A stretch of 64,000 nt of DNA. Source: Gonatopus flavifemur. Lineage: Eukaryota; Arthropoda; Insecta; Hymenoptera; Dryinidae. The stretch's first letter is position 1; every line of letters begins with the position of its first letter. Shown piece after piece: positions 7,636 to 63,575 of this stretch. Both the position numbers and the translations under genes were made by a program. The stretch spans positions 1,178,001 to 1,242,000 of the forward strand of contig JAFFJZ010000048.1 in NCBI GenBank assembly GCA_018340375.1. Reading direction: 5' to 3'. The notes beneath the pieces were generated by a model, which had not been told where the DNA came from, searched no databases, and saw nothing but the letters and a program-made list of their open reading frames with translations.

Positions 7636-8520
7636 CCCTGCACAGTGGGCCGAAATCCACAAAAAGTGCTCAAAACTATAAGGCGTTGTCTGATTCATGC
7701 ATTGTTCTGGACTAAGGGGTTTTGGGGATCGCTGATTACGAATCTGTAGTCAGATTTTCCGAATTCAAGATGGAAAATTCAATATGACGGACATAAATGT
7801 CAAAATGATTTCGATTTGCCTGAGACCCGTTTCCGGACAGTTTTTGGAAGCCGCCGAATACGAATCTGGATTCAGATTTTCCTTCAAAATCTTTAGCTGA
7901 ATTATATATGATGCCAATGATACATTAGTTTTAATCTTTCAATTTACTTACGTGTTTTACCGCGTGAAGATTGTAAATTGGACTTTGAAAACACTTTTTT
8001 TCATTTTTAAAATTTATTTATTCATTCTTTTTTTATTTTCTTTTTTAATATTTTTCTCAAGGTTTTTTATTCTTCATTTCTTGTATTGTTTCACACAAAT
8101 TTTTCTTCATATTCAATGTTCGAATGTTCCTTGGCCAACTGTATCTGCGGATCTTGTAGAAGTGCAAGGACTTCTGGCGAAAAAGATTTATTCTTTTTTT
8201 GGGGCAATCTCCGTAAAGAGGAGATCCACGGATCTGATGATATCAGTAGCATGTGTAAAAGGTCTAGATTGGTTAAAAGTCTTGAAGATTTTCTTGTATT
8301 ATGTTCTTTATAATATTTGCAATCTTTGCTACAAGCCTCTTGGGCTTCCTCAAATAATTCACCAATTGGTAAGTCAGCATGTTGTATGATATCAGACCCA
8401 TGAACAAGCACCTTATGGACTGATGCTGACATAGGATACCAATTATACTTATGAACATACAGTTCAACCGTATCATGTGCATACTTAGCAAAGGCCTCGA
8501 CATTGACAGCAAAACCACTA

Positions 8521-8786
8521 CACGGAGAAAAAGGTATCTTAAAAAGTACCATAATTTATGGATTTTCTGCGCTGGTCTGACCGAGTCTAAATATTTACCT
8601 GAAAAAACCTCTAAAAGTACCATAATGTCTTGGACTTTTATACGGAAGGTACCATACTTATTTCAAAAAGTCCAAGAAATTATGGTACTTTTAAAGATTC
8701 ATGCAAGTGAATATTCCGACTCGGGTCAGACCAGCGCTGAAAATCCATAAATTATGGTATTTTTCAAGATATCTGTTTTCTCAGTG
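8521..8786. mobile_element. MITE with CACGGAGAAAA ends inside the transposase gene
   Basis: This 266-bp palindromic element starts CACGGAGAAAA and ends TTTTCTCAGTG. It is flanked by TA (8,519-8,520 and 8,787-8,788). It interrupts the transposase between the ILQTIS and GFAVNVE segments. Confidence 0.9.
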
Positions 8787-9818
8787 TAGAGATTGTTTGC
8801 AATATTACGCGGAATCTTTTAATAACTTCCAAATCTATCCCTGTGATTTCAGATGATGTGGACGCGTGTTCGAAAAATTGCCGGGCAGTATTGCCATCAT
8901 TGGTAGTTCCACTTCCTCCAGGTATAGGCATATCAATGAGCAATCCCATTTCACTCCTGAATCTATTTTGTATAATTTTTTTTCTTTGGGAGGATAAATC
9001 CTGGTCTGTTACACTTCGAATCTGCCACTTTTGAATGGGTAAACGATAAGAAATGTGCAAGAGCAATTCAAAAAACCTTATCCAAGCATGGAGAGAAGAT
9101 AATCCGAATTGAAGATTGCATTGATCGACTGTTCTTGTAGAGACTACTTCAATATTATTCATTTTTTTGGGCCTAGCACCACAAATATTACAAGTTTGCG
9201 CAGATGCGGTTGATGTGATCGCGTTGCAAACTTTTCCGTCTATCATAGTCAGTGCCATTTTATGAGTAACACATCACCCACAGGACATGATACTTTGGAA
9301 GGCACGAGATTCTTGATCTAATTCTCTATGTATTGTTTCTCTTCTTTACTCACTTCAGTTGTTTCCTTTATCAATTGTATCCTTATTGGGCGACAGAATC
9401 TCGTTGACAATGGACGTGGATTTTTCCAAATTATTTTCTTCGTCAAGTCAGACTGCAAGACATTCAGTTCCAAAGGAACGAAAGAAGTTACAAATAGATT
9501 ACTATCACTGAACATGCTTCCGGAGCTATTGGGTTTCTGTTTGTATCGAGAATGACCCGAACTCCCATCAAATCCCCATTTTGACAACAGCGTCAGTTTA
9601 TCTAATTGCTCAATTGACAGCATACCAGTAACAGATTCACTAACCTTCGCTATACTAGTTGCAGTATGATCGAGGAGAGCTTGTAATTTTACTTCTGCGA
9701 TACTATCTAGTCTTAGCATCCAATATCTTGTGATAAGAAGGATACAAATCCACACCTCTTTCTATCGCACCATGTCGCATATTCAGATATTCATTCTTCG
9801 TTGTTTTATTCTCTACAA

Positions 9819-12382
9819 CCCGACTGGAAATTGTCATCAGGTTAACCCAACATATGATGAGGACCTGACAAGGTCATCCGAAATAAGGAATACCCGTTAC
9901 GGTCCTGATCGGGATTAGGTGTGGATGACTCACGTATGGATGACCTCATTTGGTCCTAGTCAGGATTTCCTCAAATTATCCTGAAAAGGTCGAAGTAGGT
10001 TTTCCTCGCTGTATCCGCATCAGGACCTCGTTCGGTTATCCTAAGATCATGGACATAGTTTGATAAACTGAATACAAGAATGTACAGACTTGATTTCAGA
10101 TTGTACACTCTTTGATTAAACAAATTTTCCTTCAATAAGAAGAACATGTTTGAACGATTTTCAACTGTGCCTGTTTTTAAATTCAATCCCTTCATTCCGA
10201 ACACATTACCTACTTCTGAAAACTGTTGAACAATTTGTTCAATCTATTCTCAATGTGAATTGAAAACTAACTATTTGGGTTTTAATTAGGCGGAACTTAT
10301 GAAAATTTCACAAGATTTTCCACGTTATGCATACAGCGAAAAAAACTTAGCAAACGTTCAACCATCACCAGCGAAATAAGTATTTCATTAACTTATCACA
10401 ATTCTCATAAGGTTGATTTATTCACTATTCAGCATCATTTTTCTTTCCTACACATCACATCATCTGAGTATTATTCAAAGAGTATATATGAACTGAATGA
10501 ATATGTGTTTCGTCATAATCAAATATAAGTTTCGAACAAGTACTCTTCTTTCGTTATTTCTTGATTAATACGCATAAAAAAATCTGTTATTGAGTGCAAA
10601 ATGAATTATTGAATCAGTTATCACTGCTGTAATATGTAAAAAATCATAAGTTGCTGATGCGGTGACAATTAATTCTATTCAAATATACGATAATATCAAC
10701 AACGACAATATCTATATCAATATTAATTCACATCAGTATTTCTCGGAAAAAACTCAGAAATCCCAATCATTTTGTAATAATAAAGGTCATGAAGAACTCA
10801 TTCGATCAAAAATATTTCAAGCGAATGTTCAAAATGAAATGCAAAAAACTTGAATTATTCACTTTCAGCTCGACGGATGGTTTTACTTTTCAAATTAAAG
10901 AGTACTCTTGAAGTTGAAATTTGTTAATTTCAGAAAAAAGCCTCATTTTCTGAGCTGAATTTGTTGTTAGGGTGATGATAAACTTGTAAGAAGAGTTTGA
11001 AAGTTGAGTGGAATCTATATTGATCAGGAAAGTCCAAATCGTGTGGCAAAAGTTAGAAAATCTGTCAACTTAGCTCACGGCGCATGGGCTTTTCTTCACT
11101 AAACCAAATGCTGGCAGGAGAAATTCATCAAAATATAGTGGATTCAAAGTGATGTGAAGTAAGAGAGGACCGAAATATTCATTAGATTTTATTCGTTCTC
11201 GTAAACGTTCTAAAAAATAAGAAAAGACTATAGAAGATCCAAAGTGTCGTCTTCCCATATTTTTGTTCCAATAATGTTGTGTCATGTTGCTACAAATAAA
11301 TGTTATTATATTTATGAAACAGGTTCAATACACATGTTTTCTCAACCTAACGCTAGTTACTGGTGAAAAGATACGAAAATGCACACTCAAAAATGCAAAT
11401 CATTGAAACAAAAATATTGAGAGACGATACATTGAGTCATACATAGCCTTACCATATTTATCAACATTTTTATAATAACTAATAAAATTCAATGCATGTA
11501 TCTGTCCTCTCTTACTTCACATCACTTTGAATTCACTATATTTTGATGAATTTCTCCTGCCAGCATTTGGTTTAGTAAAGAAAAGCTGATAGAATACCCA
11601 TGCGCTGTCAGCTAAGTTGACAGATTTTCTAACTTTTGCCACACGATTTGGACTTTCCTGATCAATATAGATTCCACTCAACTTTCAAACTCTTCCTACA
11701 AGTTCATCATCACCCTAACAACAAATTCAACTCAGAAGATAAGGCTTTTTTCTCAAATTTGAAAATTTCAACTCCAAGAGTGCTCTTCAATTCGAAAAAT
11801 AAAACCATCCGACGAGTTGCAAGTGAATAATTCAAGTTTTTTGTTATTCATTTTGAACATTCTTTTGACATATTTTTGATCAAATGAGTTCTTCATGACT
11901 CATATTTCTTACAAAATCAATATGATCTCTGAGTTTTTGCCTAGAAGTGCTGATGTAAGTATTTGAAGAAAATTCATTTTCACTGCATCAACAAATTACG
12001 ATTTTTTGACACGTTACAACAGCTATGACTGATTTACTTAATCATTTTGCACTTACTCACAGACTTTTTGATACACATTATTCAAGAAATAACCACCACA
12101 CATTTCACAAAAATAATTCATCCATTTGTTGATCACATAAATTTAACCTCACATCTGTCAACCGAACTGCAATTTTCACACAGGCTCATAGATTAGTTTT
12201 GATTTATTTTTGAGGTTTTAGTAAGGAATTCCTCACAAAATTCTAATTAGTCTTTCCTGATGGGGTCCTCATAATAGTGCAGCGTGACATGACTTGTTAG
12301 GTCCTGATGAGGTTGCCTTACCAGGACCTGATCTGGATCAAGGTTTACCTGATCTGGTCCATGGGGTAAATTTCTAGTCGGG
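9819..12382. mobile_element. 2.6-kb foldback element, CCCGACTAGAAATT ends
   Basis: The ends CCCGACTGGAAATT (9,819) and AATTTCTAGTCGGG (ending 12,382) are flanked by AA on both sides (9,817-9,818; 12,383-12,384). Long diverged inverted arms (best at about 10,600-11,185 against 11,505-12,020) surround a loop of about 320 bases. Near the outer ends the phrase AGGTCCTGAT or its complement repeats many times. Removing the element and one AA joins the transposase segments ...ALALI and VENKTT... in one frame, which fixes both the boundaries and the 2-bp duplication. It has no coding capacity. Confidence 0.9.
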
Positions 12383-12449
12383 AATCAGAGCTAAGGCTTC
12401 ATCGTCAGTGTAAGAAGTTATGTTTTTAACATTCTCCCAGAAAACAAAG

Positions 12450-12665
12450 TGGTTCGATGATTGTACAATCATGTACACTTCGAAGTCGTTCACGATTTTA
12501 CAATTAACTATATGATAAGTTAACACATTATTGACCAATGATGCATGCATTGAAGACTATCGCAACTGCTGTGCATCAATGATTGTACAATAATTAATAG
12601 TATTCACGCATTAGCCATTCTGATAGTACAACCATTGGTCAATTGTTCATGCATCATCGTGTCCA
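12450..12665. repeat. Inserted palindromic tract in the transposase N-terminal region
   Basis: This interval separates two coding pieces and contains mirror phrases (TTGACCAATGATGCATGCATT and its approximate complement at 12,634-12,656, plus GATTGTACAATCATG). It is probably a small insertion, but I could not define its ends. Confidence 0.4.
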
Positions 12666-13306
12666 TCAGATTGAGCGATCGTGGACTCGTTCGTTTTGTT
12701 TTCTGGGCTTCTTGACCATGTGTGGTATATTACCGGATACTGAACAAGCTTCTTGCACTATTTTAGCTGCCGTATGACGGCCTTCAGAACGTAATTTCAT
12801 TTGTAGGGCTAAAGACAATTCTGCAGTTGACTTAGTTTTACATAGTTCACTCGCTTTTCTGCGTTTTGCTTGGATGGTCGAATTTTCGAATGATGAAGTA
12901 GGACGACCACCCTTCTTGTTTGTTTTATTGGGCATTTCAATGATTGAAAATTTGACTATTCCGTTGAGCCATTTTTCATTCCTGTCGAGAAAAATCTTCA
13001 ATTTTCGGGAAGCTTTATCGTACTTATCAAATATACTTAAACCAAACAATGTAACCTGTCGTCCGATGTGTTTTATATCCTCATCTTTTTTATACGTAAG
13101 TTATTGATGACGTAACTTTTTAGGTGATTGATTTTTGCATTACGTGAGGCACTCTTCACGTTCCGTAAGATATCAAACAACTCTTTCCGTGTTGAAGTGA
13201 ATGACATTATAACGTTGCCAAACTATCAAAGGACAGTAGTCAGAGATTAAATAAAATTCATCCAATACTCTAGAAATTTCCGCATGCTCTACTTAAACCT
13301 TACTTG

Positions 13307-13541
13307 CACGGAGAAAGTGATGTATCAAATATTACTGCATTCACTCGTACATTAGTGCCCGTAAATGAAATAGTGTAATGTTTACAACTGAATGTAGCAA
13401 AACATCGTGCAATTTGGTGCAACTTCATATCATAAAGCATGAGATTTTACTACATTCAGTTGTAAACATTATACTATTTCACTTACGGGCACTAATGTAC
13501 GAGTAAATGTAGTAATATTTGATACATCATTTTTCTGCATG
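13307..13541. mobile_element. MITE with CACGGAGAAA end, palindromic
   Basis: A 235-bp near-perfect palindrome starts CACGGAGAAAGTGATG. The flanks are TG on both sides (13,305-13,306 and 13,542-13,543). It lies upstream of the transposase start, inside the Transib element. Confidence 0.8.
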
Positions 13542-14744
13542 TGATTTATTGTAATGTTGCACGTTGCATATCACTGTTAAAAATTCCCACCGCAAATTTA
13601 AGAATATTTATATTAATTTTGATACAAAAGTTTGTAAGCTATTGACAAAACATATTTTGTTCATTGAATTTCCCATACTTCTATTAAAATTCAAACACAA
13701 TATTATTTTAAAGTGCTTTTCATACAAAATTTAATTGGAATTCTCATAAAATCTGTAGTGAATTTCAAACACAAATATGTGTGTTAATTGCTTCCAAATT
13801 TGGTGTATTCAATTCACAAACTTTTTCAACAGTGTATACCGGAGAACTAATAATTTTACAGATACTGTGTCATAAAAATTAACATACCACTCGTTGCGCA
13901 GGTCTGCGCAGCATAAATAAAAGTGATTTGCAAGTAGGAATCATCTAAGAACACATTGCAAAAACCTCCCAGGGAGAGTTTTTTTAAGTATTTGAGAAAA
14001 TCGTCAATGAAATATCGAAATCGATGATTTCATTCGTACGCACAACTCAAAAACGCAATGTTCCATCCTAACACTCATGTCCCCTGGACAATATTTATTA
14101 TTTTTATATTGAAACAACATGTAAACTTCCACAAAATCCTGAGGGCTTGCAAGCGTTAATTACTTCGAAAACTCTTGTATTATTTTTCGGGAATTTTTAG
14201 AATTTCACAGTAATTTCTGTATCTTACGTAACAATATCTCACAAACTAACTCGCCTTCAGACACAGCGTTACATACCTTCATAATACTAATGTATTGGAG
14301 TAAGAAAATACCAACATTCTTGAATTTTAGAGTATTTCAGAAAAGGGGGTTTTGAGCACTTTTTGTGGATTTTGGCCCACTGTGCCCTGCTGAAAACTGC
14401 TGTTGAAGACGCTCAAGATTTCGAACAGTATCAGTGAGTATCTGAGTGTTTCTGCGAGTACGGCTGGCAAGAAAAATGAGTGCAGATTGAAAACGAAGCA
14501 GTTCCTGACAGCATTCGTGATTGTCAGAAACAAACAGAATGCACAAGCTTGAAAAATGTCAGTTCCTTGCAACAATCGTGATATAATGAAGAATGATTAG
14601 ACTGAGAATGAAATGACTGTCTGAAATGTTGATAGTTGTAAAACGTATTCTGAACAATAAGTTGATTCATAGCATGAGACTGTATGTGGTTGGAGAAGCT
14701 GTTCGGAAATTTAATTGAAACTGATAGGATTCACATGTTGAACG

Positions 14745-18804: not shown

Positions 18805-21800
18805 TCAATACGGAGATGGTCCTGGCATAGGGTATCCAGAATTAGATCCATACCATTCTGGCATATTTTGTGATGGTCCATTGTAAAAGATTGGTTGTTG
18901 AGGAAACGGAAAAGCTAAAGGAGGACAGACAGGAGGCGGAGGAAAATCTATTCCAGGATAAATGTGAGAATGGGGCGGCTGTTGCAGAACAGCATTGTGA
19001 GGGGGTGGTATACCGGGAGGTAAATTACCATTACCTGACATGTCTTGAACACCGCAAGGCATATGAAAAACTGGACCGTTGGGCGTATAATACTGCTCAG
19101 GATACCCATCAGATTCATTTGGGTAAACCACGGGGGGGTACATCGGTTGTTGCGGGTACGGTCCTGAATATGGATTGAATGGATATTGTACCTGAGGGGG
19201 AATCAAATTTGAGTACTGTGCGAATGGTTCTTGCGCATCGTTCATCTGTCCATGATGTAAAATTTGTTGATCGACGATAAAATTGTTGTATAGATAAGGA
19301 TTGCTATGCATCTGGTGGAACTGAGGTTGTTGGAAATAATTTTGATTATCTAAAAAATAAAGATCATTTGAGTAATCTGTTTATCGATTATACTAAGAAT
19401 TATAAAATCAAGAACGTACTGTATGGAGTTTTTTTGAATCGAAAATTTGCTCCACCGCCTGGACTTTTGTTCGATTTGAAATTTTCTTGATTTGTAAATT
19501 GATTTCTCGTTTTATCACGCACATTGTTATCCGTCAAATATGTTCCGTTGATATTCTGTTTTTGCGTTGGATCCGTGTTGTTATCGTTAGAAGGTTTTGG
19601 AGAACACGTAGGAGTAAACATTTCTTTCTTTTCAGAATTTCTTTCTCTAGATTTTTCGTTTATATTATCATTTCCATCTTGTTTGAGACCTTGGGAAATT
19701 ATTTTTCATTAATAAAAATTGATACAAAAATTGATTATTTCGGGGCTTACCTGATGTATCTTTTATATCGTCATTATCGATATTTCTCGAAGAAAAATTC
19801 GTGTCACATTGAATCTGCTCCATTCCACTGGATGGAATTGTTTCTTTCGAATCATTGCTGTTACAATTGAGCACGGGATACGCGTTGACCGTGTTTGATT
19901 CGTTCACAAATGAAGGTGTGCTATTAGCTAAAAACGTAAGTTTTATAATGACTGAGTAGAAACACAAAAAGAAAATAATGATACATACCATTGAGAGTTT
20001 TGTTGAAATGATTTGGGGGCGCAATATGATTTTCATTCGTATACCACCTGACGTTCTCTTTCGATTCATCACTATTGATATGATTCTTTTTGCTAGTGTT
20101 ATATTCTTTAATCTTCTCGGAATGTACAATCCCAGTCGCGGATGACGATACATCCTTGAAACGATGACCGATGAATATTAAATCTTTTGAATCCTGAAAA
20201 TGATCCAAATTGGTTCAGAAAATATTGTAATTTGTAATAATACTTCAAACACTGGTGAATGAAATTAATGATGAATCATTTTTACTCACATTTTGTAGAT
20301 TGCGTCCATGTGTTTCATAATTTTCCCGTGGAATCTGTTTAGTTTCACTGTAAAAAATATATATAATTTCGTCAAATGTTTATTCGAATTGTCAACATAA
20401 AGATACAAAAAAAGTACCAGAGTTCTCCATTTTGATAATAATTCTTATCCGCGTCCTCTTTCTTCAAAATATGAATATTTTTATTGTCATTATTATGAAT
20501 GACAGGATTTTTGTTGTTTTTGTAGTTGACCGTTTCATCAAAGGTTGTAGAATCTGTTACTTTACGGTTAAACGGGAGTGGGTTCTTCTTCCATTTTTGG
20601 TGTACTGAAAACAAGATATATAAATAAACGTGCATGTTTTTCAGCAAATAATTCATCATTCTCATCTTGTATAAAAAAAAAACACCAACAGCCCTGATCA
20701 AAAAATCCCATTAATCGAATCAATAGGATTCTTCAACTAGAGAGTCTCAATTCTTTTTCTATCAACGGTTTATTTACCGCACGTCTACGAAAATTGGACT
20801 GAGAAATCTGTGTGATTCGCACGGAGTAATACTGTTAAATACTCACTCGATTCGGTAAAGCTGTTCCTTTTTTGAGACCATACTCCGTTAAATTTATATC
20901 TATTTATAACGGGTTTCAACGCGGAATATGGTACAATCCTTTTGTCTCCTGTTTCCTTTATGAACACTATGACAGGATCTTCACTTTCATGAATTTCTTG
21001 AATATAACCATGATAAAATTCGGAATCCTTTGTAGTTACGACCTGCGATCCTTTAGTTTCATTTCCATTTTGATCTCTACTGTCCAGACAGATATTTTCA
21101 AAAAATCTGTCATCGATTAAACTAACTTGTATCAAACATTCGCCCCCAATTTGTAGATCGTTGAGCTTGTGTCTGGTCCAGCCAGCATTTTTCACTTCTA
21201 GAAATTATAATAGATCCATCAAAGAACAAAAAATTAAATAATAATTCAATATAAAAAAATTGTGTGATTATACCTCGTTTCATTTCGTGCCATACATCAA
21301 AGTCTGTGTTACGATACATGTTGGGATCTAAAGCTTTAGCTACTTTATAGGGAAAAGGCGGCGTTTCTTTGGCTACATAATTCATGGCATCATAATTTTC
21401 ACTGGAACTTTCATCATTTTCAAGAGGTTCTGATTGCTTTGAACTGAAAAAGAAATGTATTATCATTATTTTTATACATAGAAAATACATTTTGTAACAA
21501 CTTACCTTTCGAATACAAAATCTTTGGGGGTTGATTTATTCTGTTTGTATGGGGTGCTTGTATCATGTAACATTTTATACACTGTATTCTCTACATTAGG
21601 CATTTCAAAAACGTTCTTGTAAAGTACTTCATACACAAGAGCTGTAATTGAATACATGTTTTAGAAATTTTATAACTAATTGAATCTAGGAAAGGATACG
21701 TACATTGACAAAAAGCAGCATTAATTCTGTGTTCTTTGGGATATACACTTTCATATTGTCGTGGAGGTATATAACATAAATACACTTGATCTCCAGAATT

Positions 21801-34001: not shown

Positions 34002-35278
34002 CGAGGGTGGATTGATAAGTTTCCGGCCTGACCAAGAAAAACAACGTTTTTAAGAATTTTTTTTTTTTATTTCTCAACATAATCTCCTCCAAGGCTGATA
34101 CATTTCTCATAGCGGTGTTCTAGTCTAGTAATGCCATCTCTATAGACTGATTCGTCAAGCTCCTCAAAATACCCATTTACAGCTTCGATTACTTCTTCAT
34201 TGTCCGCAAATCTCTTACCGCCAAGCCATTTCTTGAGGTTAGGAAACAGATAATAGTCACTCGGGGCTAGGTCTGGAGAGTAGGGAGGGTGCGGCATTAA
34301 TTCAAACTTCAGATCGTTGATTTTAGCCATCGCAACGATTGACGTGTGCGCTGGTGCGTTATCGTGATGAAACAAGATTTTTTTCTTCGCCAGATGAGGT
34401 CGTTTAATTTTCACTTCGTGGCTCAAACGTTGCAATAAGTCTGCGTAGTATTGACCAGTGATAGTTTTACCCTTTTCAAGGTAATCAATGTATATAATAC
34501 CTCTTGCATCCCAAAAAACAGTAGCCATAACCTTGTTCGCCGAAAAAATTGTTTCTGCCTTCTTTGGAGTTGGTTCCCCTGGTCCAATCCACTGTTTAGA
34601 CTGTTCTTTGGTTTCAGGAGTGTAGTGGTGGACCCAAGTTTCGTCAACGGTTACGAATCGACGCAAAAATTCGCTTGGATTACGCTTATACAACGCCAAA
34701 TTGGCGGTAGAAATGTTCTTTCGAATCAATTTTTGGTCGACTGTTAGCAAACGCGGCACCCATCTTGCACAGAGCTTTTCCATATACAAATGTTGGTGCA
34801 AAATATTTTGTACACGTTCATATGACATCTTACAGGTCTCAGCTATCTCACGAACTTTTAATCCGCGATCTTTCAGCACTATTTGATGGATTTCTTCGAT
34901 CATATCTGGAGTTGTGACCTCAATGGGGCGTCCTGAGCGAGGCTCATCAGAGGTGCTCACACGACCCTTTTTAAACTCGGAAACCCACTGCTCAACGGTT
35001 GAATATGATGGGGAGGATGTCCCCAGTGTTGAGTCCATCTCTTCTTTAATTTCCTTCGGCGTTAACCCCTTCAAATAAAAGTATTTGATGACAGCACGAT
35101 TTTCCAGCTTTTCCATTTTTACGAAAAACACAGAGGCGTCTTGGTCAGCGTGCTCTCAAAACTAAACTAACATGGCGATCGGACTGAAACTATAGCTACA
35201 AGCTATCTAAGGATGGTACTATAGAACGCCACCTCAAGGTAGGCCTAGTGGCGCCATCTCTTGGTCAATCCACCCTCG
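34002..35278 (-). mobile_element. mariner element 2, apparently intact
   Basis: Inverted ends starting CGAGGGTGGATTGA are flanked by TA (34,000-34,001; 35,279-35,280). The length is 1,277 bp, with a full transposase frame. It is inserted in the repeat-filled gap of the hAT relic. Confidence 0.95.
34067..35116 (-). CDS. mariner transposase, all catalytic residues present
   Basis: This is a 349-residue DDE transposase starting at the conventional MEK; five further codons are open upstream, to 35,131. It has an N-terminal helix-turn-helix DNA-binding region (about residues 1-110) and a catalytic domain with VDETWVHH, HHDNAPAHTS and SPDLAPSDYYLF. That gives three aspartates, with 34 residues between the last two. 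The WVPRLLT linker motif region is present. There are no stops or frameshifts, and the length equals the family norm. It differs widely from the other three mariners in the window, so it is a separate lineage, irritans-like by motif style. Function is inferred; expression is unknown. Confidence 0.95.
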   Translation of the reverse strand: MEKLENRAVIKYFYLKGLTPKEIKEEMDSTLGTSSPSYSTVEQWVSEFKKGRVSTSDEPRSGRPIEVTTPDMIEEIHQIVLKDRGLKVREIAETCKMSYERVQNILHQHLYMEKLCARWVPRLLTVDQKLIRKNISTANLALYKRNPSEFLRRFVTVDETWVHHYTPETKEQSKQWIGPGEPTPKKAETIFSANKVMATVFWDARGIIYIDYLEKGKTITGQYYADLLQRLSHEVKIKRPHLAKKKILFHHDNAPAHTSIVAMAKINDLKFELMPHPPYSPDLAPSDYYLFPNLKKWLGGKRFADNEEVIEAVNGYFEELDESVYRDGITRLEHRYEKCISLGGDYVEK

Positions 35279-49956: not shown

Positions 49957-50570
49957 TTAAGAATAGAGATTATTAGGAATAGAGTTATTTGAGAATAAAG
50001 TAATAAAGAATAGAATGCTTGGTCTGTCGTTGTGGCAACTACATACAAAGGGCAGAATCAAAATCGACTATGTGTTCTGGTTACGAAAACCAGATTTTTC
50101 TTGGACTTGTTCGCGGGCTTTCGGCGGATTTGTTATGAATTTCTTCGCATATCATGTGATTCGAAAGTGCATAGGTCACACAAATGTGGAAGATTCATTA
50201 TGATCTTCTGGAGAATCTTGCAGGGTTAGGGGTCAATTGACCCGTAAGTAAATAAGCCTGGAGGTTAATAGACTCGAAAAATCACCACGTGTTACTAACC
50301 AAGCTCTAATCATCATAAAAGTCACTAACTTTTTGTGGGGTTCAATTCTATTTGGATCTTCTTTTTTTCGGTTGAACAGTACTTCGGGTTTATTCACTTA
50401 CGGGCCAATTGACCCAATTTCGATTCCGTTTTCGATTCTTGTTTTGATATACTCTGACAATATGTAGGCGTGTCCAAGTATTCAAATTCCCCGAGTATCT
50501 TCGAGTCCAATCCAATCGAATATCTTCTACTACCCAAAACTTTAGAGATACGTACGAAAATGGAGAAGAT

Positions 50571-52461: not shown

Positions 52462-53745
52462 TTAGGGATATAACTTTGCTTCCGCCGTTTTTTTCTGAAA
52501 TTCAAGGCTTTATTGTAAAAAACTGGTTATACATTTATGATTCAAAGTATTGTCCATCGTTGGCCACTACTTTCTCCCATCTTTCGGGCAGCATATGAAT
52601 CCCGCGTTAAAAAAACTGGTCATCTTTTGAAGCGATTCACGAATCGATCCAATTTTTTACTCCTTCATAAGACCGGAAGTGCTGGTCAGCTAGGCCGTGT
52701 GCCATTGATCGAAACGAGTGATAGTCCGAGGGAGCAACGTCTGGAGAATACGGTGGGTGGGGTAGGACTCCCCATTTCAAAGTTTCCAAGTATGTCTTGA
52801 CCACTTTCGCAACATGAGGTCGAGCATTGTCATGCTGTAAAATCACTTTATCATGTCTCTCGTTGTATTGCGGCCGTTTGTCTTTCAATGCTCGGCTCAA
52901 ACGCATTAATTGCGTTCGATGACGATCGCCCGTGATTGCTTCAGTCGATTTTAACAACTCATAATACACTACGCCGAGCTGGTCCCACCAAATATTGAGC
53001 ATAACCTTGGAACCGTGAATCTTCGGTTTGGCCGTCGACGTGGAAGCATGGCCGGGATATCCCCATGATTTTCTGCGCTTGGGATTGTCGTAATGAACCC
53101 ATTTTTCGTCCCCAGTCACAATTCGATGCAGAAATCCCTTCCGTCTTTGCCTTGCAAGCAGCTGTTCACAAACACACAAACGCCGTTCAACATCTCTCGG
53201 CTTCAACTCGTACGGCACCCAATTTCCTTGTTTCTGAATCATTCCCATGACTTTCAGGCGTTTTGAAATGGCTGGTTGCATCACTCCCAATGATCCTGCC
53301 AATTCTTGTTGCATTTGACACGAGTCTTGATCAAGTAATGCCTCCAATTTTGCATCTTCGAAAACCTCTCTTTCACCGCCATGCTGGTCTTCGACGTTAA
53401 AATCACCGTTCTTGAAGCGTTGAAACCACTCTCGGCATGTTCTTTCATTAATAGCGGCCTCACCATAGGTATTTGAGAGCATTCGATGAGCCTCAGCCGC
53501 AGATTTCTTCATATTAAAGCAGAAAATTAAAACCTCCCGCAAATGACGAGAATTTGGCTCGTAAGCTGACATATTTAATCGAGAATAACTTCATGATGCA
53601 GACACAAATCGACTAATATTTCGATGGCGTTATGTTTACAAATACCTAAGCTTATTGTATGACATCTATGATCTATTTATTTCAACTACCACTTACCGCT
53701 ACAGCCATCTATTGCAAAACGGCGGAAGCAAAGTTATACACCTAA
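52462..53745 (-). mobile_element. mariner element 3, complete but dead
   Basis: The inverted ends share TATAACTTTGCTTCCGCCGTTTT after a TTAGG(GA/TG) start and are flanked by TA (52,460-52,461; 53,746-53,747). The length is 1,284 bp. Confidence 0.93.
52535..53572 (-). pseudogene. mariner transposase with two premature stops
   Basis: The reading frame from the ATG at 53,572 to the natural stop at 52,535-52,537 would be 345 residues. The first 311 codons are open and hold TGDEKWVHY, QHDNARPHV and SPDVAPSDYHSF (D34D). Two in-frame stops follow: TGA at 52,637-52,639 (a Trp position in relatives) and TAA at 52,607-52,609. The last 30 codons remain alignable (LPERWEKVV). It belongs to the TGDEKW-type mariners, near mauritiana/mellifera; I cannot settle the subfamily. 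Confidence 0.92.
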
Positions 53746-62286: not shown

Positions 62287-63575
62287 CCAGATGTGTAAGT
62301 ATGAAACCGGAATTTTTGTACAGAAAAAACACGTTTGTTGTAATGATATGATACAAAGTAACTTATTCAAAGTATTGTCCGTCGCTATCTATACATTTTT
62401 TCCATCTTTCTGGCAATTTGTGGATTCCGCGCCAAAAGAACTGTTGCTCTTTTGAGGCAAACCAGTCATCGAGCCATTTTCGTACATCTTCGTCAGAAGT
62501 AAAGCGCTGCTCAGCAAGTGCGTGTCCCATCGATGCAAACAAGTAGTAATCGGATGGAGCAAGGTCCGGTGAGTAAGGCGCGTGCTGAAGAATCTCCCAA
62601 CGGAACGACTCTATCGTTTCCTGGACCTGTTTTGCTTTGTGTGCTGGTGCATTGTCGTGCAGCAAAATCACCTTGTGTTGTCTCTGTTAGTATTCTGGTC
62701 GTTTTTCACGCAAAACTCGATCCAAATCGATCATTTGTTGTCGGCAGCGTTGAGTATTGACAGTTTCCCCAGGTTTCAGCAGCTCGTAGTAGATTACGCC
62801 CTTCTGATCCCACCAAACACACAGCATTGTCTTCCGTCCGTAGCGGTTTGGTCTTGCCGTCGATGTTGATGGTTCACCCGGAGTAACCCATGACTTTTTG
62901 CGCTTAGGATCCTCGAAATATATCCACTTTTCATCGCCAGTCACAATTCGATGGAGAAATGACTTTCTTTGGAACCTGGCAAGCAGCATTTCGCATGATG
63001 TTTTGCGGTTTTCCTGCTGTCTTTCGTTGAGTTCATGTGGAACCCATTTCCCCACTTTTTGTATCTTTCCCATGGCCTTCAACCGGAGGGAGATGGCCAC
63101 CTTCTCGGGTCACCTTTAACTGATCCGCCAGTTGTTGTTGTGTTTGAGCGTCGTCTTCGTCCAAAAGGCTTGCAGGTCAGCGTCTTCAAACTTTTTCGGT
63201 GGTCTTCCACGTTCTTCGTTCCTGACGTCAAAATCGCCACTTTTAAACCGTTTGAACCACTCGAAACACTATGTTTTACCGAGAGCATGCTCACCAAACG
63301 CCTCCACGAGCATTCGATGCGATTCGGCTGCGGTTTTCTTCAGATGAAAACAGAAAAGTAGTGCTGTCCGCAAATCGTAATTTGTTGGCACAAAACCCGA
63401 CATGTTTATCTGTAATAAACTAATGCTACTGAATGAAACTCGTGTTATTGTGAGTTGGAAATCTTTGTCGGATATCAATACAATAACAAGACACCGCTGA
63501 CGTGATGTGTCGGTAACTGCATCGACATCTAGCGCCACCTATGGGCAAATTCCGGTTTCATACTTACACACCTGG
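62287..63575 (-). mobile_element. mariner element 4, mauritiana type, dead
   Basis: The inverted ends start CCAG(A/G)TGTGTAAGTATGAA and are flanked by TA (62,285-62,286; 63,576-63,577). The length is 1,289 bp. The ends resemble those of the Drosophila mauritiana mariner. Confidence 0.93.
62363..63403 (-). pseudogene. mariner transposase (Mos1-like) with stops and frameshifts
   Basis: It starts MSGFVPTN at 63,403, as in mauritiana-type transposases, and ends at 62,363. Motifs are FCFHLKKTAAESHRMLVEAF (N-terminal helix-turn-helix), KIQKVGKWVPHEL, VTGDEKWIYF, LLHDNAPAH and SPDLAPSDYYLF. Lesions are a TAG at 63,269-63,271, a pair of opposing frameshifts at about 63,155 and 63,105, and a TAA at 62,687-62,689. 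All three catalytic aspartates are still encoded, so loss of function comes from the broken frame. Confidence 0.93.

Follow-up and report, generated by a model that had tools for sequence, protein, structure and literature searches.

A decayed Transib transposon with RSS-like ends, one copy of an amplified family in the genome of Gonatopus flavifemur

What kind of element lies at positions 7641-14384 of the 64,000-nucleotide stretch of Gonatopus flavifemur DNA analysed here (the window), and how much does the likeness of its ends to V(D)J recombination signals (RSSs) mean? The initial annotation, made from the letters alone, had read the locus as a Transib-type transposon with signal-like ends and a RAG1-like gene, and the ends, the target-site duplications, the transposase homology and the other genomic copies all agree with that identification. 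The element is a DNA transposon of the Transib superfamily with its transposase gene on the minus strand, and it unites homology to Transib transposases that includes the DDE residues, terminal inverted repeats (TIRs) opening with a CAC heptamer, and 5-bp G+C-rich target duplications. Almost certainly it is a defunct member of an autonomous Transib family, probably of subgroup II to judge from its likeness to HzTransib of Helicoverpa zea, that has been amplified in the host genome.

The boundaries of the element are sharp (Table 1). A search of the window for CACAGTG-N11-ACAAAAAGT returned matches without mismatch at 7641-7667 (+) and 14358-14384 (-), as the initial annotation had described, and the CCCTG that it placed on each flank is present as well. 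When up to 3 mismatches were allowed, a third match appeared at 50328-50354 with 3 mismatches; the control expects 1.19 such matches, and the loose count of 3 is not significant alone because 9 of 100 shuffles also reach it. The inverted match between the two termini (7641-7676 and 14349-14384) is identical at 35 of 36 bp, and by a crude binomial estimate about 2e-9 inverted pairs of at least 36 of 37 are expected by chance per 64 kb.

Table 1. Positions of the element's features and flanks in the window
Feature	Position	Strand	Evidence or remark
Target-site duplication CCCTG, left	7636..7640		flank identical to the right one
Left terminal inverted repeat, gene's 3' side	7641..7676	+	CACAGTG, 11 bp, ACAAAAAGT
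Broken Transib transposase coding region	8091..13207	-	tblastn with P0121, residues 1-682; HzTransib matches
Presumed catalytic Glu codon	8337..8339	-	P0121 E601; profile alignment
Private nested MITE, splits coding region	8521..8786		TA on both sides; match in 0/25 other copies, 15 span the site
Presumed catalytic Asp codon	9238..9240	-	P0121 D390; profile alignment
Presumed catalytic Asp codon	9567..9569	-	P0121 D279; profile alignment
Private nested palindromic element, 2.56 kb, splits coding region	9819..12382		AA on both sides; CCCGACT ends; match in 0/25 other copies, 13 span the site
Private nested MITE, 272 bp, splits coding region	12436..12707		CCCAGAAAACAAA ends; CT on both sides; match in 0/25 other copies, at least 9 span the site
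Foldback MITE, upstream of coding region	13307..13541		TG on both sides; near-full-length match in 18/25 other copies
Right terminal inverted repeat, gene's 5' side	14349..14384	-	CACAGTG, 11 bp, ACAAAAAGT
Target-site duplication CCCTG, right	14385..14389		flank identical to the left one

The protein evidence places the broken gene among the Transib transposases. The motifs that the initial annotation listed on the minus strand (DG..SGHS, DGKV, CNIC, HKVLVH and EEAQEA) are real and stand in the order of the RAG1 core. Three single pieces of the minus strand matched the solved HzTransib transposase 6pqn, with E values of 3.5e-21 (9318-9761), 9.1e-47 (8764-9273) and 2.5e-30 (8091-8555). Among solved structures the relatives matched by single pieces were HzTransib entries only; up to E 1 these three hit neither RAG1 nor RAG1L chains, and an upstream piece at 12666-13100 (-) had no solved relative at that level. 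The whole window gene is covered by P0121, an uninterrupted database protein of 682 aa, at 95-97% identity over four pieces of more than 100 residues and over residues 1-41; the identity is 92.5% over residues 184-223 and 79% over residues 167-190, the latter stretch extending into a nested element. The presumed catalytic codons of the window copy are still D, D and E; we take E601, D390 and D279 of P0121 to be the counterparts of RAG1 E962, D708 and D600, respectively.

More distant relatives were reached with a 168-residue core piece, which matched 285 database proteins at E 0.001, the named sources among the matches listed (120 of the 285) being many insects and Hydra. A profile of 40 relatives, the approach that the initial annotation had proposed, placed the protein in the Transib/RAG1 superfamily: the E value was 2.5e-223 for 6pqn, 1.6e-13 for amphioxus RAG1L and between 2.7e-10 and 1e-6 for RAG1 entries. 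The HzTransib score is partly built in, because the searches that supplied the relatives had started from HzTransib and from a window piece. The profile's alignment to HzTransib runs through nearly all of the solved chain without large gaps. The predicted structure of P0121 (mean pLDDT 88.7, pTM 0.71) likewise matches HzTransib chains first and RAG1 and RAG1L after them (best E 2e-19), with a TM by target of 0.94 for 6pqx_A and of 0.60-0.75 for the other four HzTransib chains listed. Together with the profile and piece matches, this fold comparison upholds the reading of the gene as RAG1-like and of the element as a Transib, the likeness to RAG1L and RAG1 being the more distant one.

The Pfam scans count against this reading. 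Four window pieces gave no family above the cut-off, only two unrelated hits below it, and P0121 gave none at E 0.01; the Pfam RAG1 model was found at that level in 22 of the 40 relatives, P0121 not among them, and the database row of P0121 holds a precomputed PF26100.1. In a tree of 41 rows, which comprises Transib relatives only, without RAG1 and ProtoRAG rows, P0121 forms a long branch in a nine-row clade of modest support (84/66), outside the well supported clade of HzTransib. Two short peptide patterns picked out 43 stretches of prokaryotic genome contigs and 53 of viral contigs, and none of these encodes a relative; the exact TIR pattern had no match in the viral contigs.

The host assembly (636 Mb in 402 contigs) holds many further copies. 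A 31-base end pattern had 150 genomic matches within 3 mismatches, the window's two included, and the reversed pattern used as a control had 0. From the places listed, 25 facing end pairs were picked by eye and fetched, giving 26 copies with the window. Exact 5-bp target duplications flank 20 of the 26, the window included, whereas 1000 shuffles of the end pairings gave 1.2 on average and 6 at most; flanks agree at 4/5 positions in five other copies and at 2/5 in L036, which may consist of the ends of two different elements. The search for end pairs flanked by 5-bp repeats, suggested in the initial annotation, thus turned up other copies that share the boundaries to the base. Two copies, L038 on contig C71 and L050 on contig C335, have identical flanks and were counted as one insertion for that reason, which leaves 19 distinct exact duplications once L050 is dropped. 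This pair reflects either the duplication of a segment or a haplotype left uncollapsed.

The target duplications are 5 bp long and G+C-rich, as had been stated from the sequence alone: the distinct exact ones have a G+C content of 59% versus a background of 35%, and in 18 of the 19 the first and the last base are both G or C (background 12.8%). Five of the 19 are CANTG (background 0.4%), and 10 of the 19, counted from the printed list, are (C/G)ANTG. This near-palindromic 5-bp target, which is often used, resembles the last five bases of the family's own heptamer. With L050 dropped, the CACAGTG heptamer is found in 48 of 50 ends and the ACAAAAAGT box in 46 of 50, a conservation that is partly selected because the 31-base end pattern picked these copies. 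Internal deletions also recur: the segment corresponding to window 8371-13581 is absent in L031, L038, L050 and L055 and nearly so in L039, and that corresponding to 7882-13211 is absent in L040 and L041, with a similar deletion in L054. These derivatives have target duplications of their own, which points to movement in trans.

The window copy itself is a dead transposon, a fossil; the initial annotation had mentioned neither its damage nor the many matching ends elsewhere in the genome. Two in-frame stops interrupt its aligned coding pieces, one lying beside a frame change where some residues have been lost, and three frame changes occur without an insertion to explain them. Three nested insertions, private to this copy, split the gene further, so that no intact transposase gene is left; those other copies that do not span the insertion sites are deleted there. 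The 2.56-kb foldback element has a longest ATG ORF of 74 aa, and the 272-bp MITE is perhaps of the same kind, because both begin with CCC. The foldback MITE at 13307-13541 differs from these three in its distribution, and its presence in 18 of the 25 other copies suggests that it was part of the element before the family spread. Without the private insertions the element measures 3636 bp, of which about 2.05 kb is transposase.

Several other features were noticed in the surrounding window. Long frames resembling mariner-type transposases were seen by eye on the minus strand at 157-1332, 34067-35155, 52637-53590 and 62687-63109, two of them longer than 360 aa between stops. A piece of a probable OTU-domain gene lies at 20785-21204; at E 0.001 it had three database matches, each a bee protein that is 47-54% identical over 70% of the piece. 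From this one gene the host would probably be placed among the Hymenoptera or allied insects.

A RAGL transposon of the ProtoRAG type, with RAG1L and RAG2L genes, is favoured by the gene's distant likeness to RAG1L in profile and fold and by the 5-bp duplications and CAC heptamers common to both kinds of element (PMC7204232, in the portion available). The single pieces, however, match HzTransib but neither RAG1 nor RAG1L chains, and the element without its private insertions has only about 3.6 kb, of which the transposase takes up some 2.05 kb. In the non-coding parts at 7641-8090 and 13208-14384, a six-frame Pfam scan with X at stops, taken to E 1, turned up no RAG2 model; the scan covered the window copy, and a very divergent RAG2L could escape it. 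The scan's three hits were unrelated and below the cut-off, and the sole stop-to-stop ORF of more than 100 aa outside the coding span (162 aa, 7901-8389, +) overlaps the 3' end of the transposase in antisense. The window copy thus presents a single gene and no linked RAG1L and RAG2L pair, and we rejected a RAGL transposon, which we regard as extremely improbable, for want of a RAG2 model and on the HzTransib-only matches of the single pieces. Hardly any credence is due either to the idea that the locus is no transposon fossil and that a Transib-derived gene has been domesticated here or still functions. The DDE codons are conserved, and the longer pieces are nearly identical to the uninterrupted P0121, but the frame is disrupted by stops, frame changes and the three private insertions, and matching ends with target duplications are the marks of an ordinary insertion; it was rejected on these grounds.

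Within the Transib identification, the likeness of the ends to RSSs has to be weighed separately. The heptamer CACAGTG is the RSS consensus as stated in the available part of PMC8289069, in line with what the initial annotation said of it, and the box ACAAAAAGT is identical to the RSS nonamer ACAAAAACC at 7/9 positions and stands at 11-bp spacing at both ends, which bears out the nonamer-like box near a spacing of 12. Since one of the window's two ends copies the other, they amount to a single observation. Each end has a further A-rich box, 22 bp from the heptamer: at the right end, on the gene's 5' side, it reads TCAAAACCC (7/9), and at the left end, on the gene's 3' side, it reads TCAAAACTA (5/9) and extends 2 bases beyond the TIR. 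We somewhat favour the view that the ends, being rich in A, resemble the nonamer by chance and that the working signal is the heptamer with the whole 36-bp TIR. Shuffled TIR interiors give a 7/9 nonamer in 2.4% of trials at 12±1 and in 4.7% at 12 or 23, the TIRs of Hztransib are said to show little or no nonamer similarity (PMC8289069, same part), and all 36 bp are kept at both ends, beyond the two boxes. The near invariance of the box in the family's ends argues the other way, though these ends were preselected, within 3 mismatches, by a pattern that contains it. It is very unlikely that the ends hold a tandem of nonamer-like boxes, set at 11 and 22 bp and separated by roughly one turn of the helix, as a possible precursor state to 12/23 asymmetry; when the 5'-side end was shuffled, both boxes reached at least 7/9 in 0.03% of cases, a figure to be discounted since the test was devised after the sequence had been seen. 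If the boxes did have this role, double-register ends losing one box each would yield 12/23 asymmetry of the RSS type.

The symmetry that the initial annotation drew attention to is there, with the same 11-bp spacing on both sides and hence no 12/23 spacer asymmetry; its emphasis on RSS evolution was too strong, because RSS-like and symmetric Transib ends have already been published. The text available from PMC6941560 describes some Transib ends with heptamers and nonamers identical to the RSS consensus and spacers of various lengths, and that from PMC8289069 gives symmetric TIRs for most Transib families. A few Transibs are 12/23-asymmetric, and symmetric cases of 20-22 bp are known too (PMC8355894, in part). 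Of the two Transib subgroups, subgroup II includes both symmetric and asymmetric ends (PMC9435367).

Taken back to the Transib family as a whole, an intact member would be a RAG-like cut-and-paste transposon with a DDE transposase. HzTransib has been solved, complexes with DNA included, and biochemically tested, and the accessible part of PMC6941560 sets out its DDE residues and the cut by which it forms a hairpin. By analogy, the transposase would bind both ends and cut at the CAC heptamer, leaving a hairpin on the flank and a blunt transposon end, and the element would then be pasted in with a 5-bp stagger. After landing, the window copy would have acquired its point damage and three further elements. 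It would make no full transposase, and its ends may perhaps still be recognisable to transposase made elsewhere.

Transibs are well known, and what we describe adds a new family to a known kind of element, since RSS-like ends and symmetric TIRs are both on record (PMC6941560 and PMC8289069, each in part). The accepted picture, in which RAG1 is related to Transib transposases and RSSs resemble Transib ends, is unchanged. The family is well delimited; its copies are numerous, its ends almost identical and its target preference clear, and it could serve in comparisons of transposon ends with V(D)J signals.

Compared with vertebrate RAG1 and its signals, the family shares the consensus heptamer (PMC8289069, in part) and a homologous catalytic core, and differs in being a transposon in which RAG2 was not found and in having no 12/23 pair. 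With ProtoRAG and other RAGL elements it has in common the superfamily, the DDE motifs, the 5-bp duplications and the CAC heptamer, whereas no RAG2 model was matched outside the coding region of the window copy and the protein similarity is far weaker. The 12/23-asymmetric Transibs (Drosophila Transib5; Anopheles Transib2 and N1-N3) also have an RSS-like heptamer and nonamer, according to the available part of PMC8355894, while here the ends are almost identical with 11-bp spacing in both, and only the 22-bp box differs between them. Unlike Hztransib, for which little or no nonamer similarity is reported in the part of PMC8289069 at hand, this family has a 7/9 nonamer-like box at 11 bp, and P0121 falls in a different part of the 41-row tree. 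HzTransib (PDB 6pqn and related entries) is nonetheless alike in its homologous transposase core, its 5-bp target-site duplication, its TIRs and its length, 3518 bp in the excerpted text of PMC1852546 versus 3636 bp here without the private insertions.
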